Below, one piece after another: positions 4,352 to 50,479 of a stretch of 64,000 nt of DNA (position 1 is its first letter; each line of letters starts with the position of its first letter). The stretch is taken from contig NZ_CANLTL010000005.1 of NCBI RefSeq assembly GCF_947494015.1, forward strand, positions 186,001 to 250,000, written 5' to 3'. Both the position numbers and the translations under genes were made by a program. The stretch comes from an uncultured Cellulomonas sp. GTDB taxonomy: Bacteria; Actinomycetota; Actinomycetes; Actinomycetales; Cellulomonadaceae. The notes beneath the pieces are model-generated. The model searched no databases and was not told the origin of the DNA. It worked only from the letters and a program-made list of their open reading frames with translations.

Positions 4352-4589
4352 GGTGCTCGCCCTCCACAGGGGTGCGGTGTTGCGTCCATGCCAGGTGGAT
4401 GTGCGGCCGCGCGACCGCGCGTGCACCAGGCACCCGGGAGCATCGACAATCGGCGCACCTAGGATCGCGGGGTTGCATATGGGTACACCCGAACGCGACA
4501 CCTTGCCGCGGCGGCGCCGCAGCGTGATTCGACCGTCGCGCCAAGTCGGCTAGCGGCGTTTTGCGACGTTTGTGTGCAAGGGTCTAGGG

Positions 4590-8682: not shown

Positions 8683-8735
8683 GCGGCCCGCGACCAAGCC
8701 TGCACCGACGTCCCACCGAAAGGCACCCTGAACTG

Positions 8736-11045: not shown

Positions 11046-11777
11046 GTGAGCATCCCTTCGTCCCCAGCAGCGGCGTCCCGGCGTGCGGTCGTCGTCGATG
11101 ACGAGCAGGCACTGGCGCGGCTGGTGGCCGGGTACCTCGAGCGGGACGGGTTCGAAATCCACGTCACCCACGACGGCGCCCAGGCGGTCGGGGTGCTGCG
11201 TGCGGTCGATCCCGACGTGGTCGTCCTGGACCTGGGCCTGCCGGGTCTGGACGGGGTGGAGGTCTGTCGTCAGCTGCGGACCTTCTCCGACTGCTACGTC
11301 ATCATGCTGACCGCCCGCGCCGAAGAGGTCGATACCCTCATCGGCCTGTCGGTCGGTGCCGACGACTACATGACCAAGCCGTTCAGTCCCCGCGAGCTCA
11401 TGGCCCGGGTCGGGGTCCTGCTGCGCCGACCCCGCCGGCCCGCCCAGCCACCCTCCACCCCGACTGCTCGGCCGAGTGTCGACGTCGGGCCGCTGCGCCT
11501 GGACCTGGACGCCCGCGAGGTCCACCTCGACGGGGTGCCGGTGCCGTTGACCCGCACCGAGTTCGACGTCCTGGCGGCCCTGGCATCCGGACCCGGGCGG
11601 GTCTTCAGCCGCCGGGCCCTGATCGAGACGGTGTGGGGACCGAACTGGGTCGGGGACGAGCACCTGGTCGACGTCCACGTCCTGCACGTGCGCCAAAAGC
11701 TCGGCGACAGCCCCGAGCGGCAGCGGTTCGTGCGCACCGTCCGTGGGGTCGGCTACCGGATCGGCACCGGCACATGA
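11046..11777 (+). CDS. OmpR/PhoB-family response regulator
   Basis: A 243-residue two-domain regulator from the GTG at 11046. The receiver domain has the acidic pair VVVDDEQ, phospho-acceptor Asp62 (VVLDLGLPGLDG), the MLTARAEE switch Thr and Lys111 (MTKPFSP). A Pro-rich linker leads to a winged-helix DNA-binding domain (PLTRTEFDVLAALASGPGRV ... VDVHVLHVRQKLGDS ... RTVRGVGYRIG). The stop overlaps the kinase start by four bases (ATGA), so the two are coupled. The genes on either side are copper-related, so the pair is probably a CusRS/CopRS-like copper or envelope-stress system; the stimulus itself cannot be read from the sequence. Confidence 0.95.
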   Translation: MSIPSSPAAASRRAVVVDDEQALARLVAGYLERDGFEIHVTHDGAQAVGVLRAVDPDVVVLDLGLPGLDGVEVCRQLRTFSDCYVIMLTARAEEVDTLIGLSVGADDYMTKPFSPRELMARVGVLLRRPRRPAQPPSTPTARPSVDVGPLRLDLDAREVHLDGVPVPLTRTEFDVLAALASGPGRVFSRRALIETVWGPNWVGDEHLVDVHVLHVRQKLGDSPERQRFVRTVRGVGYRIGTGT

Positions 11778-12925
11778 CCCCCGCTGCCCGGGGCACCCGG
11801 TGGGGGCTGGCCGCGCGGCTGCTCGCCGCACTAGTCGTGGTCCTGGCCGTGGCAGCCCTCACCGCCTGGCTGGTCGCCTCCGCGGTCGGGCCGGGCCTGT
11901 TCCACGAGCACATGGTCCGCGCCGGCCTGCAGGACAACGACCAGGCGGTCCTGCACGCCGAACGGGCGTTCCGCGACGCCAGCGCCGTCTCCCTGGCCCT
12001 GGCCCTGGGTGCCGCGGCGATCGCCTCCGCAGGCGTCAGCGTCGTCCTCGCTCGGCGCATCGGCCGGTCCCTGGCCACCGTCTCCACGGCCGCCGCGCGC
12101 CTGGGCGCGGGCCAGTACGAGTCCCGCGTCCCCGCCGCCGGCCTCGGCGCGGAGTTCGACGACCTGGCCGCCTCGTTCAACACCATGGCCGCCCGCCTGC
12201 AGGACGCCGACCGGCTACGGGCCCGCCTGCTGGCGGACGTCGCCCACGAGGTCCGCACGCCCGTGGCCACCATCGCCGGCTACCTCGAGGCGGTCCAGGA
12301 CGGGGTCCAGCCGCTGGACGAGGCGACCGTCACGGTGCTGGGCGACCAGGCCGCACGGCTGACCCGGCTAGCCCAGGACCTGGCCGCCGTGACCCGCGCC
12401 GAAGCCGGCGACCTGGTGCTCGACGTCGAGCCCGTCCCCGCACGCGACTTGCTCGAGCTGACCGCGGCGGCATGGCGCGACCGCGCCACCGCGGCGGGCG
12501 TCCACCTGACCCTCGGCCCCGACACCACCGCCGCGCCGGTGGCCGTCGACCGCCACCGCATCGCCCAGGTCCTGGACAACCTGGTCGCCAACGCCCTGCG
12601 GCACACACCGCCCGGCGGCACCATCACCCTGCGCGCCGCGCCCGCCGACGCCCCCCACCACGTCGCCCTATCCGTCGCCGACACCGGCGAGGGCATCGCC
12701 CCCGAGCACCTGCCGCACGTGTTCGAGCGGTTCTACCGCGCCGACACCGCACGCGACCGCGCCAGCGGCGGATCCGGGATCGGCCTGGCGATCTGCAAAG
12801 CCCTCACCGAAGCGCACGGCGGCACCATCACAGCCACCAGCACCGCAGCCGGCGCGACCTTCGTCGCCACGCTCCCCACTAGTTCAGCGGCCCACGCGGC
12901 ACTCGTCCGCGATAGCTCTCCGTGA
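11774..12925 (+). CDS. Membrane sensor histidine kinase
   Basis: A 383-residue kinase. It has two transmembrane helices (about residues 13-36 and 72-92) with a short extracytoplasmic loop of about 35 residues containing HEHMVRAGLQDND; a His/Met-containing loop could bind metal. A HAMP domain follows, then the H-box with His158 (LLADVAHEVRTPVATIAGYL), N-box (VLDNLVANALRHTPPGG), G1 (VADTGEGIAPEHL), F-box (HVFERFYRAD) and G2 (GGSGIGLAICKAL). The start overlaps the regulator stop. With the small sensor loop and copper neighbours, it is a candidate copper sensor (inference). About 90 bases of unremarkable sequence separate it from the convergent cadD. Confidence 0.94.
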   Translation: MTPAARGTRWGLAARLLAALVVVLAVAALTAWLVASAVGPGLFHEHMVRAGLQDNDQAVLHAERAFRDASAVSLALALGAAAIASAGVSVVLARRIGRSLATVSTAAARLGAGQYESRVPAAGLGAEFDDLAASFNTMAARLQDADRLRARLLADVAHEVRTPVATIAGYLEAVQDGVQPLDEATVTVLGDQAARLTRLAQDLAAVTRAEAGDLVLDVEPVPARDLLELTAAAWRDRATAAGVHLTLGPDTTAAPVAVDRHRIAQVLDNLVANALRHTPPGGTITLRAAPADAPHHVALSVADTGEGIAPEHLPHVFERFYRADTARDRASGGSGIGLAICKALTEAHGGTITATSTAAGATFVATLPTSSAAHAALVRDSSP

Positions 12926-13018
12926 GCAGACTTACCAAGCTCGTGCTCGCAACCCTCCGTCAAGGTCGATTCCGTAAATGAGTCGTGGTCCCGAGAGATC
13001 GGCTCCCCACCGACAGTG

Positions 13019-14955: not shown

Positions 14956-14976
14956 TAGCATCGGTCTATGCCGATG
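14956..14976 (+). promoter_or_regulatory. Leaderless promoter and operator of the first CmtR gene
   Basis: A -10-like TAGCAT (14956-14961) ends six bases before the ATG at 14968, so transcription should begin at or next to the start codon. A palindrome, CATCGG at 14959-14964 and CCGATG at 14971-14976, flanks and covers the start. The same arrangement occurs at the second CmtR gene (23971-23991), which supports an autoregulatory CmtR operator. Confidence 0.6.
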
Positions 14977-15366
14977 ATCGCCGCAAGTCATGATCAGATC
15001 AGCCGGGCCGAGCTTGCCCCTGCAGGGGCGCTGTTCCGTGGGCTGGGCGACCCGACCCGCTTGGCGTTGGTGCGCCGCCTGGCAGTGGGCGAGGCCAGGG
15101 TGGTGGACCTAAGCACGGAGCTGGGCCTGAGTCAGTCGACCGTCTCGACGCACCTGGCGTGCCTGCGTGACTGCGGTTTGGTCGACTACCGCGCGCAGGG
15201 CCGGGCCTCGGTGTACCACCTGACCCGCCCCGAGCTGATGGACCTGCTCGCGGCAGCAGAAGGCCTGCTGGCGGCGACCGGGAACGCGGTGGCGCTGTGC
15301 CCGACCTATGCCGACCCGGCAGCCGACACCCACGATCTAGTCCTCTCGAAGGAGACTGCACGATGA
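14968..15366 (+). CDS. cmtR: CmtR-like ArsR-family Cd/Pb-sensing repressor
   Basis: A 132-residue winged-helix protein. The recognition-helix region contains HLACLRDCGLV with Cys65 and Cys69, and a third Cys (Cys111) lies in ALCPTYADP. Mycobacterial CmtR uses three thiolates with the same spacing (two four apart in the DNA-binding helix and one about 41 further on) to sense Cd(II) and Pb(II). The ELCVCD motif of CadC/SmtB proteins is absent. The stop overlaps the CadA start by four bases (ATGA), so the repressor and the pump form an operon with lspA. The promoter appears leaderless, with an operator palindrome over the start codon. Confidence 0.88.
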   Translation: MPMIAASHDQISRAELAPAGALFRGLGDPTRLALVRRLAVGEARVVDLSTELGLSQSTVSTHLACLRDCGLVDYRAQGRASVYHLTRPELMDLLAAAEGLLAATGNAVALCPTYADPAADTHDLVLSKETAR

Positions 15367-17330
15367 GCGACGCCTGCGGCTGCGGCGACGACCAGACCAC
15401 CCCCGCCGGCAAGGACTCCGAGGAGCACGAGGCCCAGCGGCTGTGGGAGGTCAGCGAGCTCCGCTTCGCCGCCGCCGCCGGCGGCCTGCTCCTCGCAGGC
15501 CTGGTCGCCGGGTCCATGGAACAGCCCACGGTCGCGTTGGTCCTGAACTGGGTCGCCCTGCTGGTCGGCGCGTGGACGTTCGTGCCCAGCACGTTGCGGC
15601 GGCTGGTGAAGGGCAAGATCGGCGTCGGGACGCTGATGACCATCGCCGCGATCGGTGCGGTGCTGCTGGGTGAGGTCGCCGAGGCGGCCGCGCTGGCGTT
15701 CTTGTTCTCCATCAGCGAGGGCCTGGAGGAGTACTCCCTGGCCCGCACCCGCCGCGGCCTTCGGGCGCTGCTCAGCCTCGTCCCGGCTCAGGCCACGGTG
15801 CTGCGCGACGGCTCAGAGAGCACCGTGCCCCCCGGCGACCTGCGGGTGGGGGACCTGATGCTGGTCAAGCCGGGCGAGCGCGTCGCCACCGACGGTGTCA
15901 TCCGTACCGGCCGGACGGCGCTGGACGTCTCGGCGATCACCGGCGAGTCCGTGCCCGTGGAGGCCGGACCAGGTCAGGCCGTGTACGCGGGGTCGATCAA
16001 CGGCTCCGGTGTACTCGAGGTCGAGGTCACCACGGCGGCGGAGGACAACTCCCTGGCGCGGATCGTGCGGATCGTCGAGGCCGAGCAGTCCCGCAAGGGC
16101 CAGGCTCAGCGGCTGGCGGACCGCATCGCCAAGCCGCTGGTGCCCGGGGTGATGATCGCCGCCGCCCTGATCGCCATCGCCGGCAGCCTCCTGGGAGACC
16201 CCGGCACGTGGATCGAGCGGGCACTGGTGGTCCTGGTCGCAGCCTCGCCGTGCGCCCTGGCGATCTCCGTGCCGGTGTCCGTGGTCGCCGCCGTCGGGGC
16301 TGCGTCCAAGCAGGGGGTGCTGATCAAGGGCGGTGCCGCGGTGGAGACCCTCGGCGCGATCCGCGGCGTCGCCCTGGACAAGACGGGCACCCTGACCCGC
16401 AACGCTCCCGCCGTCGTGGCCGTCGTCGCTGCCCCAGGCCGGACCGAGGACCGTGTCCTGGAGGTCGCGGCCGCGCTCGAGGCCCGCAGCGAGCACCCCC
16501 TGGCGCGCGCGATCCTGGCCGCGGTGCCGGCGGTCACCCCAGCGACCGACGTGGAGGCCGTGCCCGGCGCCGGGCTCACCGGCACGTTCGACGGTCGGCC
16601 GGTCCGACTCGGGCGACCCGGCTGGGTCCAGTCCGGGGCGCTGGCCGGCGAGGTGGAGCGGATGCAGCAGGCCGGTGCCACCGCCGTCCTGATCGAAGAA
16701 GACGGCCAGCTGCTCGGGGCGGTCGCGGTGCGCGACGAGCTGCGCCCTGAGGCCGCGCAGGTCGTGGCCCAGCTGCGCCGCGACGGGTACCACGTGGCCA
16801 TGCTCACCGGTGACAACACGCTGACGGCCAACGCCCTGGCCCGGGAGGTCGGGATCGAGGAGGTGCACGCCGACCTGCGCCCGGAGGACAAGGCCGCACT
16901 GGTCGCCCAGCTGCGGACCCAGCGCCGCACGGCCATGGTCGGCGACGGCGTCAACGACGCCCCCGCCCTGGCCACCGCGGACCTGGGCATCGCGATGGGC
17001 GCGATGGGCACCGACGTCGCGATCGAGACCGCCGACGTCGCGCTCATGGGTGAGGACCTGCGGCACCTGCCCCAGGCGTTCGCCCACGCCCGCAGGGCCC
17101 GGGCCATCATGCTGCAGAACGTGGGCCTGTCCCTGGCGATCATCGTCGTGCTGATGCCCCTGGCGCTGACCGGGGTCCTCGGGCTGGCTGCCGTGGTCCT
17201 GGTCCACGAGGTCGCCGAGGTCTTCGTGATCGCCAACGGTGTCCGCGCCGGCCGCACTCGCCCCCTGCCGCCAGACACCACCACGGAAACCGCTGCCGCC
17301 TTCGAGCGCCCAGCGCTGGCCACCCGATGA
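15363..17330 (+). CDS. cadA: P1B-type heavy-metal ATPase (CadA/ZntA-like)
   Basis: A 655-residue P-type ATPase. The N-terminus begins MSDACGCGDD, a short Cys cluster in place of a full heavy-metal-associated domain. The actuator has ITGESVPVEAG, the membrane site is SPC (Cys297 in AASPCALAIS), phospho-Asp339 is in ALDKTGTLTRN, and the hinge is TAMVGDGVNDAPALATAD. The SPC motif rather than CPC, together with the regulator, suggests Cd/Zn/Pb export; SPC is a known variation and could alter specificity. About six to eight membrane helices are visible, ending in VLVHEVAEVFVIANG. It overlaps cmtR at its start and lspA at its end by four bases each. Confidence 0.92.
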   Translation: MSDACGCGDDQTTPAGKDSEEHEAQRLWEVSELRFAAAAGGLLLAGLVAGSMEQPTVALVLNWVALLVGAWTFVPSTLRRLVKGKIGVGTLMTIAAIGAVLLGEVAEAAALAFLFSISEGLEEYSLARTRRGLRALLSLVPAQATVLRDGSESTVPPGDLRVGDLMLVKPGERVATDGVIRTGRTALDVSAITGESVPVEAGPGQAVYAGSINGSGVLEVEVTTAAEDNSLARIVRIVEAEQSRKGQAQRLADRIAKPLVPGVMIAAALIAIAGSLLGDPGTWIERALVVLVAASPCALAISVPVSVVAAVGAASKQGVLIKGGAAVETLGAIRGVALDKTGTLTRNAPAVVAVVAAPGRTEDRVLEVAAALEARSEHPLARAILAAVPAVTPATDVEAVPGAGLTGTFDGRPVRLGRPGWVQSGALAGEVERMQQAGATAVLIEEDGQLLGAVAVRDELRPEAAQVVAQLRRDGYHVAMLTGDNTLTANALAREVGIEEVHADLRPEDKAALVAQLRTQRRTAMVGDGVNDAPALATADLGIAMGAMGTDVAIETADVALMGEDLRHLPQAFAHARRARAIMLQNVGLSLAIIVVLMPLALTGVLGLAAVVLVHEVAEVFVIANGVRAGRTRPLPPDTTTETAAAFERPALATR

Positions 17331-17860
17331 CCGTGCCCGGCCAGACCACGGCCAAGACCAGGGTGACGAGCCCCGCGCGGCGGCGCGTAGCAGCGGGTCT
17401 GGGTGCCGTGCTGGTCGCCGCCGTCGACCTCAGCGCGAAGGCCTGGGCAGTGAGCGAGCTGCAGGACCGGGTCATCCCCGTGGGCCCGGTCGACCTGCGG
17501 CTGGCGTACAACCCCGGGGTGGCCTTCTCCGTCGGGGCCGGCGCACCGACATGGCTCGTGCTCACCGTGACCGTGCTCGTCACTGCTGCGGTCGGCGTGG
17601 CCGCCTGGCGGACCGCCGCCGCCCCCTCGCGAGGGCAGCTGGCCGCCCTGGCCCTGGTGCTGGGTGGTGCGATCGCGAACGTCGTGGACCGGGCCAGGGA
17701 CGGTGTCGTGACCGACTACCTGCACACCGGATGGTTCCCGACCTTCAACCTCGCCGACACCGCCATCGTCACCGGCGCCGCCCTGCTGGTGCTGACCACG
17801 CTGCGCCACCCGACACCTCGACCCAACGAGGACCGCACGAGCACCCGAGAGACCGGGTGA
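17327..17860 (+). CDS. lspA: Signal peptidase II (prolipoprotein signal peptidase)
   Basis: A 177-residue membrane protease with four hydrophobic helices. Conserved blocks are present: DLSAKAWA near the start, YNPGVAFS, GAIANVVDRARDGVVTDYLH with catalytic Asp121, and FNLADTAI with catalytic Asp144. The enzyme removes signal peptides from lipid-modified prolipoproteins. The ATG at 17327 overlaps the cadA stop by four bases, so it is co-transcribed with the metal ATPase. Coupling of an extra lipoprotein signal peptidase to metal resistance is known from Firmicutes copper operons (lspA with lit). Here a separate Lnt gene at 38.2 kb and several lipoproteins in the window fit the same idea. A strong hairpin terminator follows. 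Confidence 0.93.
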   Translation: MTVPGQTTAKTRVTSPARRRVAAGLGAVLVAAVDLSAKAWAVSELQDRVIPVGPVDLRLAYNPGVAFSVGAGAPTWLVLTVTVLVTAAVGVAAWRTAAAPSRGQLAALALVLGGAIANVVDRARDGVVTDYLHTGWFPTFNLADTAIVTGAALLVLTTLRHPTPRPNEDRTSTRETG

Positions 17861-17886: not shown

Positions 17887-17923
17887 GAGCAAGGGCCACC
17901 GCCATGACAGGTGGCCCTTGCTC
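17887..17923. terminator. Strong hairpin terminator after the cmtR-cadA-lspA operon
   Basis: A 14-base perfect inverted repeat, GAGCAAGGGCCACC and GGTGGCCCTTGCTC, with a nine-base loop, about 27 bases past the lspA stop. It insulates the next operon, whose promoter follows at once. Confidence 0.8.
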
Positions 17924-17928
17924 ATATC

Positions 17929-17949
17929 AACGCTCGTTACGATGTTCAC
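17929..17949 (+). promoter_or_regulatory. Leaderless promoter region of the CadC-like repressor operon
   Basis: TACGAT at 17938-17943 ends six bases before the ATG at 17950, as expected for a leaderless -10. An AACG/CGTT inverted pair lies at 17929-17938 and may be part of the operator. This would be the only promoter for the seven genes up to 23815. Confidence 0.45.
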
Positions 17950-18354
17950 ATGACGGACGAAGCGTGTGACCTGCTGTGCCTGGACGTGCCGCACGCCGAG
18001 GCGGTCCGCGCAGCACTGCCGCAGCTGCACCGTTCTCAGGCGATGGCGCAGACCGCCAAGGCACTGGCGGACCCGGTGCGCCTTCACACCGCATCGGCCC
18101 TGGCCCTGGGGACCGAACTGTGCGTGTGCGATCTGGCGTGGGTCGTCGGCGCCGCGCCGAACCTGGTCTCCCACCACCTGCGTGTCCTGCGCCGAGCCGG
18201 GCTGGTGACCTCCCGCAGGCAGGGCAAGCTGGTGATGTGCCGGCTCACGGCGCACGGCGAGGCGCTGCTGGAGGTGCTGGGCGTCACCGCACCGGGTCAG
18301 CTCTCACCGCCAGCGGACCAGTCGGAGCTGATGGCGGCGCCCGATCGTGGATGA
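17950..18354 (+). CDS. CadC-like ArsR/SmtB-family metal-sensing repressor
   Basis: A 134-residue protein. The N-terminal extension carries Cys6 and Cys10 (MTDEACDLLCLD) and the alpha-3 helix carries ELCVCDLA with Cys58 and Cys60. Staphylococcal CadC senses Cd(II)/Pb(II)/Bi(III) through two N-terminal Cys and Cys58/Cys60, so the whole four-thiolate site is conserved here. The recognition helix is AAPNLVSHHLRVLRRAGLV. The ATG at 17950 is favoured over upstream in-frame GTG codons because it restores the CadC-like N-terminus and suits the -10. Its stop lies inside the next gene (eight-base overlap), so it heads the TlpA-CcdA-DUF3105-DUF305-ResB-CcsB operon and presumably represses it. Confidence 0.9.
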   Translation: MTDEACDLLCLDVPHAEAVRAALPQLHRSQAMAQTAKALADPVRLHTASALALGTELCVCDLAWVVGAAPNLVSHHLRVLRRAGLVTSRRQGKLVMCRLTAHGEALLEVLGVTAPGQLSPPADQSELMAAPDRG

Positions 18355-19027
18355 GCCAACCCCAGCCGGCGGACCTTCGGCGCAGGGAACCGCCGCGCCG
18401 ACACGGTCGCGCCCACTGCTGACCCGACCGCGGGTCATCGTCCTGGTCCTGATCGTGGTCACCGGCGCCCTGGTGGCGGTCCAGCTCGCCGGGTTCCTGT
18501 CGGCGGGCCAGGGCGCGGCGGTGGAGCAGAGCTCGCCGTCGACGGGCAGCAGGGCAGTGGTCGAGTACGCGGCGCAGGACCGGGCCGAACCGGTGGTCCT
18601 GTCCGGGACCGGGCTGACCGGTGAGGCGATCGACATCGCGGCCTGGCGCGGCGACGTCGTGGTGATCAACGTGTGGGGTTCGTGGTGCGCGCCGTGCCGT
18701 GAGGAGGCGCCGATCCTGGCGGCCACGTCGGCCGCCTACGCGGACCAGGCAGTGCGGTTCCTCGGGGTCAACGTGCGCGACAACCCCGCTGCGGCGATCG
18801 CGTTCGAGGAGAGCTACGGGATCACCTACCCCAGCATCGACGACAGCGACGGCCAGGCCCTGCTGAGCCTGGCTGAGCACCTGCCGGCTGCCGGGGTCCC
18901 GGTGACCTTGATCCTGGACCGCGACGGGCGCCCGGCGGCGCGCGTCCTGGGAGCGGTCCAGGAGTCGACCCTGACCGCGCTGCTGGACACGGTCCTGGGC
19001 GAGCAGCCCCAGGGGCCGCCGTCGTGA
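18347..19027 (+). CDS. TlpA/ResA-type membrane-anchored thiol-disulfide oxidoreductase
   Basis: A 226-residue protein from the GTG at 18347. One N-terminal membrane anchor (about residues 30-50) is followed by an extracytoplasmic thioredoxin-like domain with the active site GSWCAPCREEAP (Cys114 and Cys117). The C-terminal part has the cis-Pro region PAAGVPVTLILDRDG. ResA/TlpA proteins keep apocytochrome c heme-binding thiols reduced or reduce other exported thiol proteins. It overlaps the repressor by eight bases and its stop overlaps ccdA by four. In this operon it would receive electrons from CcdA. A role in protecting exported Cys from soft metals is an alternative. Confidence 0.92.
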   Translation: MDEPTPAGGPSAQGTAAPTRSRPLLTRPRVIVLVLIVVTGALVAVQLAGFLSAGQGAAVEQSSPSTGSRAVVEYAAQDRAEPVVLSGTGLTGEAIDIAAWRGDVVVINVWGSWCAPCREEAPILAATSAAYADQAVRFLGVNVRDNPAAAIAFEESYGITYPSIDDSDGQALLSLAEHLPAAGVPVTLILDRDGRPAARVLGAVQESTLTALLDTVLGEQPQGPPS

Positions 19028-19770
19028 GCGCGCTGCAGGACCTCGTCGCGGCCGGCCCGATGCTCGCGGCCGCGGCGGTCGCGGCCCTGGCCGGGCTGAT
19101 CTCCTTCGTGTCCCCGTGCGTGCTCCCCGTGGTGCCCGGGTACGTGTCCTACGTCGCCGGCGGCCCGTTGCTCGATCAGGAAGCGGGGACGCGGCGACGC
19201 CCGGTCGTGGTCGGCACCGCGTTGTTCATCCTGGGGTTCGCTGCGGTCTTCGTCGCCTACGGCGCCCTCTTCGGCGGCCTCGGAGCCACGTTGCAGTCCT
19301 CCCAGGTGGTGCTCACCCGCGTCCTGGGGGTCGTGGTCGTAATCATGGGTCTGGTCTTCGCCGGCTGGCTCCCCGGGTCCCAGCGCCAGCTGCTGCCGCG
19401 GCTGCGCCCTAAGTCTGGTCTGGTAGGCGCCCCGTTGATGGGCGTCACCTTCGGGCTGGGCTGGACCCCGTGCCTGGGCCCGACCCTCGCCACGGTCCAG
19501 ACCCTGGCGTTCACCGAGGCCAGCGCCGGGCGCGGGGCGACGCTGGCCGCGGTCTACGCCGCCGGGCTCGGTCTGCCGTTCATCGCGGTCGGCCTGGGCA
19601 TGCGCCGGGCCCTGACCGCCACCGCGTGGGCGCGACGGCACACGGCGGCGATCAAACGCGCCGGTGCGGTGATGCTCATCGCCACCGGCCTGCTGCTGGC
19701 CACCGGGGTGTGGGACCACCTCATGCGCGCCATGCAGTCCACCATCTCCGGTTACACCACGGTCCTGTGA
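19024..19770 (+). CDS. ccdA: CcdA-type cytochrome c biogenesis/thiol electron transporter
   Basis: A 248-residue membrane protein with six hydrophobic helices. The two conserved membrane Cys motifs are present: FVSPCVLPVVPGYVSY in helix 1 and LGWTPCLGPTLATV in helix 4. CcdA (the short relative of DsbD) carries electrons from cytoplasmic thioredoxin to extracytoplasmic TlpA/ResA-type proteins. The GTG start overlaps the TlpA stop (GTGA), so the two donor-acceptor proteins are made together. The gap to the next gene is 31 bases. Confidence 0.94.
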   Translation: MSALQDLVAAGPMLAAAAVAALAGLISFVSPCVLPVVPGYVSYVAGGPLLDQEAGTRRRPVVVGTALFILGFAAVFVAYGALFGGLGATLQSSQVVLTRVLGVVVVIMGLVFAGWLPGSQRQLLPRLRPKSGLVGAPLMGVTFGLGWTPCLGPTLATVQTLAFTEASAGRGATLAAVYAAGLGLPFIAVGLGMRRALTATAWARRHTAAIKRAGAVMLIATGLLLATGVWDHLMRAMQSTISGYTTVL

Positions 19771-19801
19771 CCACCACGCACCTGGAAGGCATCACCAGCT
19801 G

Positions 19802-20437
19802 ATGAGCACACGAATGGACGCCTCTGAGCGCGGGGCCCGGCTGACCGAGATCCGCGAGCAGCAGCGACGCGCCGAACGCCGCCGCACGGGTCTCATCACC
19901 GGCGTCAGCGCACTGGTCGCCGCGGTGCTGATCGCCGTGACCGCGATCGTCATCGTCGGTGAGCAGCGGCGTCAGTCCGATGTCGCCGAGGCTGCGGCCG
20001 GGGACATCTCCGGCGTGCAGACGTTCACCGACCTCTCGGCGACCCACGTCCAGCAACCGGTCCAGTACGAGCAGACCCCACCGGTCGGTGGCGACCACGC
20101 AGGTGCATGGGCCAACTGCGGCACGTACACCGAGCCGATCCCCAGCGAGCTCGGGGTGCACTCCCTGGAGCACGGTGCCGTGTGGATCACCTACAGCCCT
20201 GACGTGCCGACCGAGCAGGTGCAGCGGCTGACCGACCTGGCCGGCGGCAACGCCTACGTCCTGCTCAGCCCCTTCGACGGCCTGCCCGAGCAGCCAATCG
20301 TGGCCAGCGCGTGGGGCCTTCAGCTTCCGCTCGAGACTGCGGATGACCCGCGCCTGGAGCAGTTCCTGGTCAAGTACCAGCAAGGTGAGCAGACGCCTGA
20401 GCCGGGCGCGCCGTGCACCGGTGGGGTGAGCCCCTGA
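19802..20437 (+). CDS. DUF3105 membrane-anchored protein
   Basis: A 211-residue protein: a basic cytoplasmic start, one membrane helix (about residues 33-54) and an extracytoplasmic domain. Conserved blocks are HVQQPVQYEQTPPVGGDHAG, WANCGTYTEPI, VHSLEHGAVWITY, and FLVKYQQGEQTPEPGAPC. The GGDH, the H-x4-H pair in HSLEHG and two Cys residues are fixed features of DUF3105 and look like a metal or redox site, but the biochemical role is unknown. A second copy is at 34568-35224, next to CtaG, so both copies sit beside cytochrome/copper assembly genes. The stop and the next ATG overlap by one base. Confidence 0.88.
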   Translation: MSTRMDASERGARLTEIREQQRRAERRRTGLITGVSALVAAVLIAVTAIVIVGEQRRQSDVAEAAAGDISGVQTFTDLSATHVQQPVQYEQTPPVGGDHAGAWANCGTYTEPIPSELGVHSLEHGAVWITYSPDVPTEQVQRLTDLAGGNAYVLLSPFDGLPEQPIVASAWGLQLPLETADDPRLEQFLVKYQQGEQTPEPGAPCTGGVSP

Positions 20438-21120
20438 TGACCGAGAACGCGACTGCGCGGCGCGCGATCGCCACCGCGGCGCTGGTGATTCTGCTGGCCG
20501 CGGTAGTGGGGGTCGTCGGCATGGTGGCCGGTGCCGCCCTGAGCGGTGAGGGTGATGCCGTCTCTCGGCCGGCGGAGGGCTCCGCCGAGGCGGGGTTCGC
20601 CCGGGACATGCAGGCCCACCACACCCAGGCGGTGCAGATGTCCACCATGGTCCGCGACGCCACCGATGACCCCGAGGTCCGGTCCCTGGCGCTGGACATC
20701 ATGCTGACCCAGCAGCAGCAGGCCGGGCAGATGTACGGCTGGCTCGAGCAGTGGGACCTGCCTCAGGCCAGCCTGGCGGCGCCGATGCAGTGGATGAGCG
20801 GCACCGACTCCGACACCGACATGGGCTCCATGGACCACGGGACGGACTCGACGGATTCGACGGTGGGGCCCGACTCCGGCGCGGTGATGCCGGGGATGGC
20901 GACCGACCAGGACCTGCAGCAACTGGACCAGGCCGTCGGTGTCGACGCGGAGACGTTGTATCTGCGACTCATGGTGGCCCACCACCAGGGGGGCGTCACC
21001 ATGGCCCAGGGCGCTCTGGACCGGGTGCAGGACCAGGACGTGCGCCGCCTGGCGCAGGCGATCGTCGACTCCCAGACCGCTGAGCTCGCGGTCCTCGAGC
21101 AGATGCTGGCCGAGCGTTGA
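20437..21120 (+). CDS. DUF305 membrane-anchored protein
   Basis: A 227-residue protein with an N-terminal membrane helix (about residues 10-33) and no lipobox. The extracytoplasmic part has the DUF305 halves FARDMQAHHTQAVQMSTMVR and YLRLMVAHHQGGVTMAQGAL, joined by a Met/Asp/Ser-rich linker (MQWMSGTDSDTDMGSMDHG). Paired His residues and Met suit copper binding. The ATG at 20437 overlaps the DUF3105 stop by one base (TGATG). It is a paralogue of the lipoprotein at 10019-10648 and of the broken copy at 39870-40146. Here it is embedded in a cytochrome c maturation operon. Confidence 0.88.
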   Translation: MTENATARRAIATAALVILLAAVVGVVGMVAGAALSGEGDAVSRPAEGSAEAGFARDMQAHHTQAVQMSTMVRDATDDPEVRSLALDIMLTQQQQAGQMYGWLEQWDLPQASLAAPMQWMSGTDSDTDMGSMDHGTDSTDSTVGPDSGAVMPGMATDQDLQQLDQAVGVDAETLYLRLMVAHHQGGVTMAQGALDRVQDQDVRRLAQAIVDSQTAELAVLEQMLAER

Positions 21121-22841
21121 GTCCTCCCTCGAAGGAGACCGGCACCGCCGCCGGCAGGGTTGGTGCGCCCGGGCAGACGCCGGGTCGGGCGGGGACCGTC
21201 ACGAGCCAGGTGCAAGCCGCCCCGGACGAGGACGACGTGCTCGCGGCCCGAGCCGGAGTCATGGCGGTACCGCGGCGACCGACCGGTGGCGGAGCGACGG
21301 CGTGGGCCCGGTGGGCGTGGCGCACGCTGACGTCCATGCGCACCGCGGTGCTGCTCCTGCTGGCACTGGCGCTGGCCGCCGTCCCGGGTTCCTTGCTGCC
21401 GCAGCGCGGTGTGGCGTTCGACCCCGGCGCCGTCACGCGGTTCAACCGGGACAACCCGACTCTCGGGCCGTGGTTGGACCGCCTGGGATTCTTCGAGGTG
21501 TACTCCTCGCCCTGGTTCGCCGCGATCTACCTGCTGCTCATGGTCTCCATGACCGGCTGCGTCCTGCCGCGCGCGGCCCGGCTGTGGGAGTCCGCCCGCG
21601 CGGAACCTCCGCGGGCACCGACCAACCTGGCGCGCCTGGACGACCACCGTCGCGCCACGGTGACCGTGGAACGGGCCCAGGTCTTGCAGGCGGCAGCCGT
21701 GCACCTGCGCGCCAGAAGATTCCGCGTCGTGGTCGACGAGCACTCCGTACGGGCGGAGAAGGGGTACCTGCGCGAGGTCGGCAACCTCGTGTTCCACCTG
21801 TCCTTGCTGGTGCTGCTCTTCGGGGTGGCGATCGGGTCGTTGTTCGGCTTCGAGGGGCGGGTGATCGTCGTGGAGGGCGCCTCGTTCACCAACACCCGCC
21901 TGCAGTACGACGAGTTCACCCCCGGGCCTTTGACCGACGCCGAAGCCTTGACCCCGTTCTCCCTCACGCTGGACGACTTCACCGCCGAGTTCGAGACGTC
22001 CGGCCCCCAACGCGGCAGCGCGCGCGACTTCCAGGCCGACGTCACCGTGCTGCGCACACCCGGCGGCGCCTCCGAGGCCGTCACGGTCAAGGTGAACCAC
22101 CCCCTGCGGGTCGAGGGGACCAAGGTGTTCCTCACCGGCAACGGGTACGCCCCCGTGGTCAGCGTCCGTGACGGCCGCGGACAGACCGTGTTCACCGGAC
22201 CTGTGGTGTTCGCGCCCGTCGACGGGAACCTGTCCTCCGAAGGGGTGATCAAGATCCCGGACGCCCAACCCACCCAGCTTGGCTTCGAGGGGTTCTTCCT
22301 GCCCACCGCCTCCATCGACCCCCAGGTCGGGCCCCGTTCGCTGTACCCGGACCTGCTCGACCCGCAGCTGCTGCTCACCGCCTACACCGGCGACCTCGGC
22401 CTAGCCGACGGCGCACCCCAGTCGGTGTTCCGCCTGGACAAGAGCGACCTGACCCAGGTGATGACCGGGGACGAGCCGTTCGCGCGAGCCCTGGCACCGG
22501 GGGAGTCCATGACCCTGCCCGACGGGCAGGGCACGCTGACGTTCGAGTCGGTCTCCCGGTTCGCGAACTTCCAGATCGCCCAGGACCCGGGCAAGGAGAC
22601 CGCCCTAGCGGCAGCCGTCGCTCTACTGCTCGGCCTGACGGTGTCGCTGGCCGTGCGCCGGCGCCGGATCTGGATCCGCGTCACCGACACCCCCACAGGC
22701 GGCGCCTTCACGCTCGAGGCCGCCACCTACGCACTGACCCGCCGCGGACCAGTACCGGACGAGCTCTCGTCCGTGCTCGCCGCCCTGCCGGGCACCGAAC
22801 CGGCCGGCACCGACCCTTCCCCGCACGACCGAGAGGACTGA
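21117..22841 (+). CDS. resB: ResB/CcsB1-type cytochrome c biogenesis protein
   Basis: A 574-residue System II protein from the TTG at 21117, which overlaps the DUF305 stop by four bases. After a hydrophilic lead of about 75 residues it has membrane helices at roughly 77-95 and 142-160, the conserved FFEVYSSPWFAAIYLLLMVS region, a third helix (NLVFHLSLLVLLFGVAIGSL), a large extracytoplasmic domain of about 270 residues and a last helix near 500-517. ResB with CcsB/CcsA forms the heme-delivery and attachment complex. The exact start is uncertain; a GTG about 20 codons downstream is possible. It is followed two bases later by ccsB. Confidence 0.93.
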   Translation: MSPPSKETGTAAGRVGAPGQTPGRAGTVTSQVQAAPDEDDVLAARAGVMAVPRRPTGGGATAWARWAWRTLTSMRTAVLLLLALALAAVPGSLLPQRGVAFDPGAVTRFNRDNPTLGPWLDRLGFFEVYSSPWFAAIYLLLMVSMTGCVLPRAARLWESARAEPPRAPTNLARLDDHRRATVTVERAQVLQAAAVHLRARRFRVVVDEHSVRAEKGYLREVGNLVFHLSLLVLLFGVAIGSLFGFEGRVIVVEGASFTNTRLQYDEFTPGPLTDAEALTPFSLTLDDFTAEFETSGPQRGSARDFQADVTVLRTPGGASEAVTVKVNHPLRVEGTKVFLTGNGYAPVVSVRDGRGQTVFTGPVVFAPVDGNLSSEGVIKIPDAQPTQLGFEGFFLPTASIDPQVGPRSLYPDLLDPQLLLTAYTGDLGLADGAPQSVFRLDKSDLTQVMTGDEPFARALAPGESMTLPDGQGTLTFESVSRFANFQIAQDPGKETALAAAVALLLGLTVSLAVRRRRIWIRVTDTPTGGAFTLEAATYALTRRGPVPDELSSVLAALPGTEPAGTDPSPHDRED

Positions 22842-22843
22842 CC

Positions 22844-23815
22844 GTGCCGACCCCTCTGCTGGCCGAGCTCAGCGACCGGCTGATCTACAGCGCCATCGCC
22901 GTCTATGCCCTGGCGATGCTCACCTACGCCTACCAGGCGGCCAGACGCTCGCAGTCCCCGGCACAACGATCGCGCCTGGTCGAGGCGGTCGCCGTGGGCG
23001 GGCCCTCGGCGTCCCCCGCCCCCCCGCCCAACCCCGCCGCCGTCAGCCGGCCCGCTCCAGCAGCCCGCCGGCCGGAGCGGATCGCCGCCGCCCTGACCAC
23101 GCTCGCGTTCGTGCTGCACCTGGCCGGCGTCCTGGCCCGGGGCCTGGCCGCGAGCCGGGCGCCGTGGGGCAACATGTACGAGTTCACCACCGCCGCCACC
23201 CTGGCAGCCACAGCCGCCTACCTGGTGTTCCTGCGGCGCCAGCCCGTGCGTGACCTCGGCGTGTGGATCCTCGCGCTGGTCACCCTGAGCCTCGGGCTCG
23301 CCGTGACCGTCCTGTACACCCCCGCCGGAGACCTCGTCCCCGCACTGAACTCCTACTGGCTCGTCATCCACGTCGCAGCAGCGATCATCGCCGGCGGCGT
23401 GTTCACCGTCGGCGCTGCTGCCACTGCCCTGTACCTCCTGCGCCGACGAGCGGACGCACGCGACGCCGGTGTCGCGGTTGCGGGCTACGCCGGACGTCTC
23501 CCGGCGGCCAGGACCCTTGAGGACATCGCCCACACAGCTCACCTCTTCGCCTTCCCGGTCTGGACCTTCGCCGTCCTGGCCGGCGCGATCTGGGCCGAGG
23601 ATTCCTGGGGCCGGTACTGGGGATGGGACCCCAAGGAGACCTGGGCGTTCATCACCTGGGTGCTCTACGCCGCCTACCTGCATGCCCAGTCCACCGCCGG
23701 GTGGCGCGGCACCAAAGCCGGCTGGCTCGCCCTGGCCGGCTACGCGGCGTTCCTGTTCAACTTCGTCGGCGTCAACCTGTTCATCAACGGCCTGCACTCC
23801 TACGCCGGCGTCTGA
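22844..23815 (+). CDS. ccsB: CcsB/CcsA-type cytochrome c synthase heme-handling protein
   Basis: A 323-residue multi-helix protein of the HMWP/CcmF-CcsA family. The tryptophan-rich heme motif is present (WGRYWGWDPKETWAFITW), with flanking His residues in VLHLAGV, LVIHVAAA, TAHLFAF and INGLHSY that serve as heme ligands in this family. It completes a System II set with ResB, CcdA and TlpA. The operon contains no c-type cytochrome and I saw no CxxCH protein anywhere in the window, so the substrate must be encoded elsewhere. Confidence 0.94.
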   Translation: MPTPLLAELSDRLIYSAIAVYALAMLTYAYQAARRSQSPAQRSRLVEAVAVGGPSASPAPPPNPAAVSRPAPAARRPERIAAALTTLAFVLHLAGVLARGLAASRAPWGNMYEFTTAATLAATAAYLVFLRRQPVRDLGVWILALVTLSLGLAVTVLYTPAGDLVPALNSYWLVIHVAAAIIAGGVFTVGAAATALYLLRRRADARDAGVAVAGYAGRLPAARTLEDIAHTAHLFAFPVWTFAVLAGAIWAEDSWGRYWGWDPKETWAFITWVLYAAYLHAQSTAGWRGTKAGWLALAGYAAFLFNFVGVNLFINGLHSYAGV

Positions 23816-34428: not shown

Positions 34429-34567
34429 GACCCGACCCCGCACCGGGCAGATGCGCGAGAACACACTCGCGCGGCGAAGCCCTGGCGCACGGCCCGTCGT
34501 GCTGGTCCCTGCGCAGTCCCGCACGGGCAGCCCTGTACTGGCAGACCCGCCTCACCGAAGGAGAGCT

Positions 34568-38172: not shown

Positions 38173-39828
38173 ATGCCCACCCCGTCACGCACCGTGGATC
38201 CCGTCACCACGGAGTCAGGGCTGACTCCCACGCGTGCGGGCACGCCAGCCAGCGCCCGTAAGCAGGCTGCCGGTTCTCGAGGGGTCGCCTTGCTCGTGGC
38301 GGCCGCCGGGGGACTGATCACCGAGACGGCGTTCCCCGGCAAGTCGTGGTGGGTGATGGCCTATCTCGGTGTCGCCCTGCTGCTGCTGGTCCTGCGGATT
38401 GACTCCATACGGGCGGGTTTCGTCCGCGCGTTCGTCTTCGGCCTGGGTCTGTTCCTGCCGCACCTGTGGTGGGCGAACGAAGCCGTGGGCCAGCCCATCG
38501 GGTGGCTTGCACTGTCCGCGGCGCAGGCCGGCATGGTCGGGGCCTTCGGTGTGAGCGTGGTGTGGGTGCGCCGCACACCGGCGGTGCGTAGCCGGGCGTG
38601 GCTCGACTGTGTCGCAGTGGCGGTCCTGTGGGTCGCTGTGGAGCACTTGCGTGGGCGGGTGCCGTTCGGGGGCTTCCCGTGGGCCACGTTGGCCTTCTCC
38701 CAGACCGACGCACCCATGTTGGGCCTTGCTCCGGTGGGTGGGTCCACACTCGTGAGCTTCATCGTGGTGCTGGTCGCTGCGGTACTGGCGAAGGTCCTGG
38801 CCTACTCGCGTCAGACCGGGCCGACCCGTGGGGTCCTTGCCGGCATGGCTCTCGCAGCTGGACTGGTCCTCGCGCCAGGGCTCCTGCCCTTGGCGACCGA
38901 GGCGCAGTCCGGCGTACTGCGTGTGGGTGCGGTGCAAGGCAACGTTCCCGTCCGTGGTGCCGAGGCCACGTCCCAGGCGCGTGCCGTGCTGCAGAACCAC
39001 GCCGCCGGCACACGCGCGATGGTGCAGCGCACCGCCCCTGACCGGTTGGACCTCGTGCTGTGGCCCGAGAGTGCGTCCGACATCGACCCACGCACCGACG
39101 ACCGCGCACGCGCCGTCGTCGACGGCGCCGCACGGGCCGCCGGCGCCCCCATCCTGCTGGGCACCCAGCGCTTCCGCGGGGAGATCCGGTACAACGATTA
39201 CCTGCTGTGGCGACCTTCGATCGGGGCCGCCGCCAGCTACACCAAGCAGCACCCTGTGCCCTTCGGGGAGTACATCCCCTACCGCAGCTTCTTCCGGCGT
39301 CTCACCCCGGCGGTAGACCTCGTAACCACTGACATGGTGGCGGGCGCGGACCCGTCACCGATCGCGGTGCCCATCGATCGCTTGGGGCGATCAGTGCCGA
39401 TCACCACCGGAATCTGCTTCGAAGTCGCCTATGACGACCTGATCCGCCAGTCGGTGCTCGCCGGGGGCGAACTGATCGTCATCCCGACGAACAACGCTTC
39501 CTTCGGCATGACGCAGGAATCCACCCAGCAGCTGGCCATGTCGCGGTTCCGCGCCGCCGAGCACGGCCGTGCCGTCATACAGATCTCCACCGTCGGTGTC
39601 AGCGCTGTGATCGCCCCCGACGGATCGGTCGTGGAACGAACCTCCTTGTTCACCGCAGACCAGCTGGTCGCCGAGGTTCCGTTGCGCACCTCGACGACCC
39701 TCAGCGACCAGCTCGGTCGGTGGCTCGCAGTAGCGGTCGACTGCCTGGCTGGTCTCCTGCTTGCTGGAACGCTGGTGACGACCCTTCGATCCCGCCGGGC
39801 TACGAAGTCCCTGCGCGACGGTCGCTGA
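38173..39828 (+). CDS. lnt: Apolipoprotein N-acyltransferase
   Basis: A 551-residue enzyme. The N-terminal half has about seven membrane helices (FPGKSWWVMAYLGVALLLLV onward, with the LRGRVPFGGFPWATLAFSQ block). The C-terminal nitrilase-like domain has the catalytic triad Glu299 (LVLWPESASD), Lys358 (TKQHPVPFGEYIPYRSFFR) and Cys415 (TTGICFEVAYDDLIR). Lnt adds the third acyl chain to lipoproteins. The gene follows copD by 114 bases on the same strand. An lspA gene also sits in a metal operon at 17.3 kb, so lipoprotein processing recurs in this region. A 3' fragment of a second copy is at 51487-51712. Confidence 0.95.
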   Translation: MPTPSRTVDPVTTESGLTPTRAGTPASARKQAAGSRGVALLVAAAGGLITETAFPGKSWWVMAYLGVALLLLVLRIDSIRAGFVRAFVFGLGLFLPHLWWANEAVGQPIGWLALSAAQAGMVGAFGVSVVWVRRTPAVRSRAWLDCVAVAVLWVAVEHLRGRVPFGGFPWATLAFSQTDAPMLGLAPVGGSTLVSFIVVLVAAVLAKVLAYSRQTGPTRGVLAGMALAAGLVLAPGLLPLATEAQSGVLRVGAVQGNVPVRGAEATSQARAVLQNHAAGTRAMVQRTAPDRLDLVLWPESASDIDPRTDDRARAVVDGAARAAGAPILLGTQRFRGEIRYNDYLLWRPSIGAAASYTKQHPVPFGEYIPYRSFFRRLTPAVDLVTTDMVAGADPSPIAVPIDRLGRSVPITTGICFEVAYDDLIRQSVLAGGELIVIPTNNASFGMTQESTQQLAMSRFRAAEHGRAVIQISTVGVSAVIAPDGSVVERTSLFTADQLVAEVPLRTSTTLSDQLGRWLAVAVDCLAGLLLAGTLVTTLRSRRATKSLRDGR

Positions 39829-40781: not shown

Positions 40782-40813
40782 TTGACGTTCCCCTGCGGTG
40801 GAACGTCTACGGT
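40782..40813 (+). promoter_or_regulatory. MerR-type promoter of the mercuric reductase gene
   Basis: TTGACG (40782-40787) and TACGGT (40808-40813) are separated by 20 bases. The spacer holds the dyad CGTTCC/GGAACG (40786-40791 and 40800-40805). A spacer longer than 17 bases with a central dyad is the hallmark of MerR-activated promoters. Confidence 0.7.
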
Positions 40814-40860
40814 CGGCCGCCCGGCCAGATGGCGCCATCGGCGCAGCGAAGGAGTGCACC

Positions 40861-48283: not shown

Positions 48284-50131
48284 CTACTGGCGGTGCTCGG
48301 TGTCGTCGTCCGGGCGCACGCCGTCGCCGACAACGCCTTGGGCCGCCTGTTCCGGCTCGCCGGTCCCCGTGGCCATCCGCTGCCGCCCCAGCTCGCGCTG
48401 ACCCTGGTGGTCGGACTCCCAGTCGAAGAAGCCCCCGTCCGGCGTCGCGAAGTCCATCGCCGCGACCTCAGGGTGGTGCAGGTCGAACGCCGGTCGCTCG
48501 GAGCGGATCCGGGGCAGCGACGTGAAGTTGTGCCGCGGCGGCGGACAGCTCGTGGCCCACTCCAGGGAGTTGGAGAAGCCCCACGGGTCGTCGACCGTCA
48601 CCTTGGGCGCCTTGCGCCAGGTCACGTACACGTTCCACAGGAACGGCAGCGTGGACGCCGCCAGCAGAAAGGACCCGATGGTCGACACCTGGTTCATCCA
48701 GGTGAAGCCGTCCTCGGGTGCGTAGTCGGCGTAGCGGCGGGGCATGCCCACCACGCCGAGCCAGTGCTGGATGAGGAACGTCATGTGGAAGCCGACGAAC
48801 AGCGTCCAGAAGTGGATCTTGCCGAGCTTTTCGTCCAGCATCCGTCCGGTGAACTTGGGCCACCAGAAGTAGAAGCCGGCGAACATCGCGAACACGACGG
48901 TGCCGAAGACCACGTAGTGGAAGTGCGCGACGACGAAGTAGGTGTCGGTGACGTGGAAGTCCAGCGGCGGGCTGGACAGGATGATCCCGGTCAGTCCGCC
49001 GAACAGGAACGTCACGAGGAAGCCGATCGACCACAGCATCGGCGTCTCGAACGTGATCTTGCCGCGCCACATCGTGCCGATCCAGTTGAAGAACTTCACC
49101 CCGGTCGGCACCGCGATGAGCATCGTCATGACCGCGAAGAACGGCAGCAGGACCGCACCGGTCGGGTACATGTGGTGCGCCCACACCGTCACGGACAGCG
49201 CCGCGATCGCGATCGTCGCGTAAACGATGCCCTTGTAGCCGAACAGCGGCTTGCGGCTGAAGACCGGCAGGATCTCCGACACGATGCCGAAGAACGGCAG
49301 CGCGATGATGTAGACCTCGGGGTGCCCGAAGAACCAGAACAGGTGCTGCCACAGGATGGCGCCGCCGTTCTCGGGGTTGAACACCTGGGCGTCGAGGCGT
49401 CGGTCCGCACCGAGCGCGAAAAGCGCGGACGCCAACGGCGGGAACGCCATGATCACCAGGATGCTGGTCACCAGGATGTTCCAGGTGAAGATCGGCATCC
49501 GGAACATCGTCATCCCGGGCGCCCGCATCGTGACGATCGTGCTGATGAAGTTGACCGCCCCGAGGATGGTCCCGAAGCCGGTCAGCGCGAGACCGAACAC
49601 CCACAGGTCCCCACCGAGCCCCGGTGTGAAGGTCGTGTCCGACAACGGCGCGTAGGCGAACCACCCGAACGACGCCGCGCCCTGCGGCGTGAAGAACCCG
49701 CCGCAGGCGATCAGCCCGCCGAAGAGGTAGAGCCAGTACGCGAACATGTTGAGTCGCGGGAACGCGACGTCGGGCGCACCGATCTGCAGCGGCATGATGA
49801 CGTTGGCGAAGCCGGCGAAGAGCGGGGTCGCGAACAGCAGCAGCATGATCGTGCCGTGCATCGTGAAGAGCTGGTTGTACTGCTCCTTGCTCTGCACGAT
49901 GTCGATGCCGGGCGTGAACAGCTCCGCGCGGATCAGCAGCGCCATGAGGCCGGCGATGCAGAAGAACATGAACGACGTGATCAGGTACAGGTACCCGATC
50001 GTCTTGTGGTCGGTGGAGGTGATCCACTTCACCACCGTGCGGCCCAGCGTCTGTCGCCGCAGGGCCAGGCCCGGGACGTGCGGTTCGACGTGCTGCGCCG
50101 AAGGGGCCGAGGGTGCTGTGTCGGTCGCCAT
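48284..50131 (-). CDS. ctaD: Cytochrome c oxidase subunit I (aa3 type)
   Basis: A 615-residue heme-copper oxidase subunit from the ATG at 50131 (AAGGAA site). Twelve helices and the metal ligands are visible: [13 protein letters not shown] (low-spin heme His), [20 protein letters not shown] (CuB His and the cross-linked Tyr), [10 protein letters not shown] (CuB His-His), and [11 protein letters not shown] (heme a3 and heme a His). It is the catalytic subunit that reduces oxygen. No ctaC, ctaE or ctaF is in the window, so this is an isolated extra copy. Its C-terminus (after [13 protein letters not shown]) is a variable tail. CtaG-type assembly genes in the same region may serve it. Confidence 0.95.
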
Positions 50132-50479
50132 GTCAGTTCCGGTTCCTTTGCATCGCCAGCGGCGCGGCTCAGTCTGGGTGTAGGGGTCAGGCCATTGCCG
50201 GAGCACCTGGCCCGCCCCTTCTGGGCGCGTGGACCGCTTCTTCAGTTTGCAGCTGAAGCTTCAGTAAGCGGGCGGCCCGGACGCGCCGGTTACGCTCGCT
50301 CGTGTGGTGAGGCTAACGCCCGGCGGCAACGCATGTAGCGCGGGGCAGGCATCGGCGTGGTGGCTCGGTGGAGCTATGCCTCCTGTCATGCTGGTGCCAG
50401 GCACATCGGCCCACAGCTACGGCTGCACGCCGCTGATGGTGTGTGTGGCCATCCCAGCAACGACTGACAAGGAACTGCC
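50132..50479. other. Divergent promoter interval between ctaD and the aquaporin gene
   Basis: About 350 bases. A perfect 12-base palindrome CTGAAGCTTCAG lies at 50253-50264, with another CTTCAG just upstream (at about 50240), making a possible regulator site. Nothing else is clear. Confidence 0.4.

Follow-up and report, generated by a model that had tools for sequence, protein, structure and literature searches.

A second operon for System II cytochrome c maturation, headed by a CadC-type repressor, in a metal-resistance island of an uncultured Cellulomonas

The seven-gene operon and its conservation

The window analysed here is a stretch of 64,000 nucleotides from an uncultured Cellulomonas sp. 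(contig 5, 186001–250000, of a 4.28-Mb assembly in 44 contigs). Our subject is a seven-gene operon within it, in which a CadC-type repressor of the ArsR family precedes genes for System II cytochrome c maturation, and which directly follows cmtR-cadA-lspA in a metal-resistance island. The genes lie on the + strand between 17950 and 23815 in the order ArsR-TlpA-CcdA-DUF3105-DUF305-ResB-CcsB (Table 1). Their successive junctions are overlaps of 8 and 4 bases, a gap of 31 bases, overlaps of 1 and 4 bases, and a gap of 2 bases. Pfam E-values were 3.1e-10 for HTH_5/ArsR, 2.4e-15 for Redoxin (TlpA), 2.7e-13 for DsbD_TM (CcdA), 5e-47 for DUF3105, 6.7e-44 for DUF305, 1.2e-138 for ResB (PF05140) and 2.1e-44 for Cytochrom_C_asm (CcsB); CcsB also exceeded the TIGR03144 cut-off (234.1 versus 187.6 bits). 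An earlier annotation of this DNA, hereafter the original prediction, had listed the seven genes, their families and their overlaps and gaps, and the profile matches and our reading of the junctions agreed with it throughout. By sequence, the operon holds the parts that define System II: ResB, CcsB with its heme-handling motif, CcdA, and a thioredoxin-like partner carrying CxxC.

The winged-helix domain of the repressor was confirmed, with PF01022 and NF033788 both above cut-off. Cys6, Cys10, Cys58 and Cys60, claimed for this protein, were found at exactly those positions, and all four are kept in 12 of 12 aligned operon-type ArsR rows. Among the best solved relatives were Lmo1102 and CadC, whose metal site consists of Cys7/Cys11/Cys58/Cys60 (PMC6975044). 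The score against the CmtR equivalog model was 33 bits (cut-off 150), and the protein is thus not a CmtR match. With the family matches and the four cysteines in place, the claim of a complete System II operon led by a sensor of the CadC type was upheld.

A search for the same gene order yielded 13 instances of the operon: the one described here, two in genome G088, one each in genomes G112, G138, G118, G150, G120, G033, G156, G146 and G849, and one in Demequina sediminis (locus L023). Loci L020, L021, L022, L024 and L025 were taken as the same places as those in G088 (contig 3), G112, G138, G118 and G150, and were counted once. All 13 instances start with ArsR and read ArsR-TlpA-CcdA-DUF3105; 12 are complete and go on with DUF305-ResB-CcsB, and the remaining one (G146) is cut by a contig end. 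The conserved order that the original prediction proposed to look for therefore exists, no instance of it in the genomes searched lacked the repressor, and the notion that the operon is peculiar to one genome did not survive. In a draw of 200 genomes of the family, the operon-type ArsR (67–82% identity) and DUF3105 (76–89%) occurred in the same 10 genomes, our own included; G063 held a further ArsR match (43%) without such an operon. The Demequina copy keeps the order and has in-frame stops in tlpA (8466–9122) and resB (11210–12940).

The genome carries two ResB genes. The other one belongs to a tlpA-ccdA-resB-ccsB set on contig 1, presumably the housekeeping set, whose proteins are 46–51% identical to those of the island and beside which no DUF3105 or DUF305 match was found. 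We searched 20 chosen genomes for ResB and found it in 19, with none in G005. Nine of the ten island-bearing family genomes (G000, G088, G112, G138, G150, G033, G120, G118 and G156) have the island ResB and at least one further copy. In the tenth, G146, the island contig ends inside DUF3105, and the single ResB detected is not of the island type. A tree of 41 ResB proteins placed the 10 island copies in one group (support 100/100). For eight of the nine genomes, the non-island copies joined those of further family members in a housekeeping group (14 rows, 100/100); G088's other copy was outside the tree. Copies from plasmids and other genomes that we labelled as metal-linked (11 rows) were scattered over the tree with six label changes, at least four of which are forced by well-supported branches. 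CcdA has two cysteines in nine of nine island copies versus three in 14 of 14 other copies; this could reflect a single change within a single clade and on its own is no evidence. We rejected the idea that the island enzymes have a 'metal-hardened' composition, as the densities of Cys, Met and His in ResB were alike in both types.

Table 1. Coordinates in the window of the operon, its upstream signals and the island genes discussed in the text
Feature	Position	Strand	Basis or remark
RNA hairpin between lspA and the operon	17888..17922	+	15-bp stem, -32.2 kcal/mol, z -7.3
Predicted ArsR operator CATATCAACGCTCGTTACGATG	17923..17944	+	22-nt imperfect inverted repeat over predicted -10
Predicted -10 (TACGAT) of putative leaderless promoter	17938..17943	+	six bases before ATG 17950
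ArsR/SmtB repressor, CadC type, Cys6/Cys10/Cys58/Cys60	17950..18354	+	Pfam, alignment, solved relatives
TlpA/ResA-like thiol-disulfide oxidoreductase, WCAPC, probable N-terminal anchor	18347..19027	+	family match, motif
CcdA, transmembrane thiol reductant carrier, conserved Cys pair	19024..19770	+	DsbD_TM match, motif
DUF3105 protein, one long N-terminal helix and domain with invariant His/Cys, probably extracytoplasmic	19802..20437	+	
DUF305 protein, CopM-like, two HH motifs	20437..21120	+	family match
ResB (System II)	21117..22841	+	Pfam, tree
CcsB/CcsA, System II heme-handling subunit, tryptophan-rich motif WGRYWGWDPKETW	22844..23815	+	Pfam, TIGR03144, motif
CmtR-like ArsR repressor, upstream neighbour	14968..15366	+	CmtR model match below cut-off; conserved neighbour
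CadA-type heavy-metal P-type ATPase, upstream neighbour	15363..17330	+	TIGR01512 above cut-off
LspA, signal peptidase II, upstream neighbour	17327..17860	+	family match
Lnt	38173..39828	+	elsewhere in island here
Second ctaD (cytochrome c oxidase subunit I)	48284..50206	-	contig-3 copy: 93% identical protein, 90% DNA

Promoter region and predicted operator

Two claims about the region upstream of the operon stood in part. A strong terminator had been proposed: the hairpin is indeed stable, but no T-run follows its stem and it was not among the terminators listed by the scan. A leaderless promoter had also been proposed, and TACGAT does lie six bases from the ATG; as a -10 it is a prediction, and the promoter scan gave no sigma-70 pair upstream of the operon.

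The putative operator overlies this -10. Alignment upstream of operon-type ArsR genes revealed a conserved block, ATATCAACG..CGTTA..ATG, with a similar block ahead of related ArsR genes from other families. We built a matrix from eight 22-mers of such other-family ArsR promoters, with no operon-type sequence included; seven stand directly before ArsR-cadA pairs and one (L172) has only a partial CadA match 1.9 kb off. The predicted operator scored 25.8 bits, compared with 9.6 for the next distinct site of the window and a best of 18.3 (mean 12.3) in 100 shuffled windows. Because the matrix sites had been picked by eye, we ran an unpicked control. Seeds of 22 bases were taken at every third position of the window, from both strands, and the best match of each was sought in the eight raw 175-base promoter stretches. 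Among 42,652 such seeds the one at 17923 came first, with 127 of 176 letters matched (mean 96.2, standard deviation 4.0); ranks 2–4 were shifted copies of it, and the next score was 114.

In every one of the 13 instances the best-scoring site of the examined stretch was the one directly before ArsR, and nine scored above the best shuffle. Ten of 17 held-out stretches had their best site, with a score above 16, close before ArsR, and one (Streptomyces) had it before the whole cluster. The operator pattern had one exact match in our 4.28-Mb genome, the operon site; a control pattern had one match. We rejected a wider ArsR regulon, since the pattern gave, besides the exact site, its reverse-strand row and three sites with three mismatches. 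Nothing comparable was found near the other System II set, where the best operator score in 11 kb was 8.4 bits. As an inverted repeat the site is imperfect, pairing at 7 of 11 positions, a level that 2% of the 22-mers sampled from the window also reach, and the cross-family match is therefore the strong part of the operator case. We concluded that there is a predicted inverted-repeat operator at ArsR's own promoter.

Island neighbours, partner proteins and plasmid parallels

The metal-island context, the contig-1 System II set, the second ctaD and the operator had all been overlooked in the original prediction. Of the 12 instances with the upstream side available, 11 have CmtR and LspA immediately before the operon (G156 has neither, and the G138 contig ends there). 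Full-length CadA lies between them in 10 instances, with a fragment match only in G146. In 11 of 11 relatives with the downstream side available, the first recognised gene to follow CcsB is Lnt, which here is found farther off. The window also encodes CopC, CopD and two CtaG-type proteins. Serine resolvases lie near both window ends (4572–5189 and 61936–62532), possibly as mobile-element borders, and the protein of 40798–42228 passed the cut-off of TIGR02053, the model for MerA (mercuric reductase).

We rejected a dedicated island cytochrome after listing heme motifs in all six frames of the window, where the sole CVGCH sits in a 40-amino-acid frame; the reported lack of a CxxCH protein in the window was thus correct. 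Among the window proteins scanned there was no COX2 or cytochrome c family match. The genome-wide CxxCH pattern gave fewer matches than its reversed control, among the matches listed. The suggestion of a client encoded elsewhere did gain a candidate: contig 3 encodes a di-heme cytochrome c (Cytochrome_CBB3, 8.7e-23; two CxxCH), which adjoins a QcrA-type Rieske protein and cytochrome b and lies 5 kb from COX1/COX2 genes. It is a likely client of the island set. A contig-6 protein with three CxxCH had no cytochrome family match.

Outside the operon lineage, the nearest ArsR relatives occupied 21 places (L165–L176 and L254–L262), 12 from a class draw of 394 genomes and nine from an order draw of 396 genomes; several come from one genome and some contigs are short. 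TlpA, CcdA, ResB or CcsB occurred somewhere in the stretch in nine of these places.

By its DUF3105 protein, the nearest named relatives of the operon were Actinotalea, Cellulomonas and Demequina. An alignment of 33 DUF3105 sequences shows 25 invariant columns, among them His82, His99, His120, His124 and Cys205. A function by fold was not obtained: despite a confident model (predicted local distance difference test, pLDDT, 92.6), the best Foldseek E-value was 0.024 and none was ≤0.001, with a weak likeness in that most of the 50 listed matches were thioredoxins or thioredoxin-based designs. The open-licence literature that we searched (titles, abstract starts and passages) yielded no paper on DUF3105. 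Two further DUF3105 genes lie in the genome, in the window at 34451–35224 and on contig 13 at 99778–100407, the latter paired with DUF305. The operon's DUF305 protein fell just below the model of CopM (NF049983; 84.2, cut-off 90), which in Synechocystis is a periplasmic copper-binding DUF305 protein. Nine DUF305 matches were found genome-wide, including those on contig 5 at 196031, 255689, 261365 and 272284, in the window and beyond.

We surveyed 74 other DUF3105 loci, the best among the matches listed, some of them on short contigs. DUF3105 and DUF305 genes were ≤1.5 kb apart in 60, and ResB/CcsB were present in one, and we rejected the pair as a general part of System II. That it mostly occurs without System II points to its insertion into a System II operon. 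The original prediction had seen in the two proteins an uncharacterised metal or redox step in heme or copper delivery, a view not supported in that form, given these counts and the copper-binding CopM relatives of DUF305.

Among 72,556 plasmid records, ResB matches were found on 94 and CcsB matches on 105. We inspected 16 neighbourhoods (14 via ResB, two via CcsB), chosen non-randomly for differing genera and judged by annotated names. Metal-transport or copper-handling genes were present in 15, the exception being Pseudonocardia autotrophica; lspA, lgt or lnt accompanied the System II genes in 13 (loci among L217–L226 and L237–L242), and CtaG-type, CtaD or SURF1 genes in eight. The ctaD gene was also seen in L166/L167 and on metal plasmids of Kocuria and Mycolicibacterium, and genes for thioredoxin and VKOR occur together with TlpA or CcdA on some metal plasmids. 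On a plasmid of Streptomyces sp. CdTB01, termed cadmium-tolerant in the title of a reference, the order is thioredoxin-VKOR-TlpA-CcdA-ArsR-ResB-CcsB, with ArsR 62% and ResB 43% identical to the island proteins. This different order suggests a separate assembly; the ResB tree gave no settled branching between the CdTB01 lineage and the island group. A held-out operator site of 31.0 bits lies ~90 bases before its annotated thioredoxin gene, with none directly before its ArsR. The literature searched contained no description of System II or lipoprotein genes with metal plasmids as such a system, and no explanation for lipoprotein-processing genes accompanying System II genes.

Reading of the operon and comparison with known systems

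We consider it rather probable that the metal-resistance island carries, at this locus, a spare operon for cytochrome c maturation that metal induces. The link between regulator and operon is well supported by the sequence, more so than the original prediction could know: gene order, second copy, conserved regulator and operator-like site can be read from it directly, while binding, metal specificity, induction, clients and a protective role are inferred. The CadC-type ArsR would repress the operon by binding the 22-bp inverted repeat over the -10 of the leaderless promoter, and soft metal ions in the cytosol (Cd, Pb or Zn) would occupy the four-Cys site and release it. A second System II would then be made; CcdA and TlpA would hold the heme-binding cysteines of the outer side in the reduced state, and ResB-CcsB would deliver and attach heme. 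The CopM-like DUF305 protein and DUF3105 might sequester or clear metal round the assembly site, guarding the outer surface. The likely clients would be the cytochromes c that the host normally makes, chiefly the di-heme cytochrome of its bc complex, since metal poisoning has been reported to strike cytochrome c assembly. Passages in two papers state that copper disturbs this assembly (PMC6247083, PMC11591864, both citing Durand 2015). A precedent comes from Bacillus vietnamensis, where Cd raised the genes for CcdA and a thiol-disulfide oxidoreductase 131–373 fold (PMC6975044).

Several observations count against this account. The choice of matrix sites by eye favours the window's block, four of the 13 instances (G118, G150, G120 and G849) score 14.1–16.3 and thus inside the shuffle range, and six of the 17 held-out stretches (L063, L164, L242, L259, L261 and L262) have no site above 16. 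Of the 21 places with outside ArsR relatives, 11 have CadA adjacent in the same orientation and just four (L166, L175, L254 and L260) have ResB in the stretch. A CadA-type ATPase is thus the commonest partner of this repressor type, and we read the operon as a recruitment of its control to cytochrome c maturation. The six frames of the window hold no credible gene with CxxCH, CxxxCH or CxxxxCH. The in-frame stops in the Demequina tlpA and resB imply that the set is dispensable there, and Cd resistance showed no notable gain when the B. vietnamensis CcdA pair (orf4108-4109) was overexpressed (PMC6975044).

Some of these observations would fit other explanations. The products might instead form an envelope defence that protects thiols and counters copper, TlpA-CcdA, DUF305 and DUF3105 reducing metal-oxidised thiols and binding copper, and ResB-CcsB exporting heme or serving redox export without any particular cytochrome as client. 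The copper binding of CopM, the thioredoxin and VKOR genes that accompany TlpA or CcdA on some metal plasmids, and the DUF3105-DUF305 pairs without System II are in keeping with this; we hold it unlikely, given that ResB and CcsB are full length with intact motifs and the order tlpA-ccdA-resB-ccsB is that of the contig-1 set. It seems quite improbable that the island set serves a spare respiratory branch comprising the second CtaD, the CtaG factors and a cytochrome out of view. The second ctaD, the two CtaG-type proteins, and the ctaD genes on the Kocuria and Mycolicibacterium plasmids and in L166/L167 agree with such a branch, but CtaD is not known to carry heme c, and the window offers neither a credible CxxCH protein nor, among the proteins scanned, a COX2 or cytochrome c match.

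The linkage might also be accidental, with horizontally gained System II genes hitchhiking in the island and the repressor preceding them by chance, for which the resolvase genes, the variable gene order outside the lineage, the decayed Demequina copy and the frequency of the repressor type beside cadA could all be cited. We give this little credence: the order is kept in all 13 instances, the operator-like site over the promoter is the unique exact match in the genome, Streptomyces CdTB01 provides a separate case, and metal-linked ResB proteins occupy several places in the tree, with at least four forced label changes.

A broader idea is tentative, and we would put it below an even chance: that actinobacterial metal islands carry metal-switched spare copies of extracytoplasmic assembly machines, repeatedly assembled across lineages, of which the CadC-headed System II operon would be the clearest case. 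Such a target-replacement kit would include cytochrome c maturation, LspA/Lgt/Lnt, VKOR-Trx and CtaG/CtaD/SURF1. Metal resistance is usually accounted for by efflux, sequestration and detoxifying enzymes, and sensor-controlled replacement of a poisoned envelope pathway would, if true, be a different strategy, suggesting that cells survive toxic metals by deploying spare copies of the damaged machinery. It would account for resB, ccsB, lspA, lnt and ctaG on actinobacterial metal plasmids, and would allow tests of which envelope pathway is the first to fail when cadmium, lead or copper is present.

The operon is a new combination of known parts and not new machinery. Like an ordinary System II (resA/tlpA-ccdA-resB-ccsB), the island set has all four components with their motifs, in the order of the genome's contig-1 set; it differs in being a second copy, headed by ArsR, with DUF3105-DUF305 between ccdA and resB, in a metal island. 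Its repressor is homologous to CadC of S. aureus pI258 (structures 1u2w/3f72), the Cd/Pb repressor of cadA, and has the four-Cys site at equivalent positions; actinobacterial relatives often stand beside cadA with a like operator-type site. Unlike CadC, it precedes cytochrome c maturation genes and not an efflux ATPase. CopM shares the DUF305 family and HH motifs with the operon protein, which nonetheless scores below the CopM cut-off and sits inside a System II operon. The Cd-induced pair of B. vietnamensis places a thiol oxidoreductase and CcdA near cadA-cadC, as in the island, whereas no ResB-CcsB is listed in that 31-gene insert (PMC6975044). Lastly, actinobacterial metal plasmids (Arthrobacter FB24, Kineococcus pKRAD01, Rhodococcus, Streptomyces CdTB01) likewise mix metal genes with System II, lipoprotein and oxidase-assembly genes, but in other orders, and among those examined only CdTB01 combines a close ArsR relative with a strong operator on its System II cluster.

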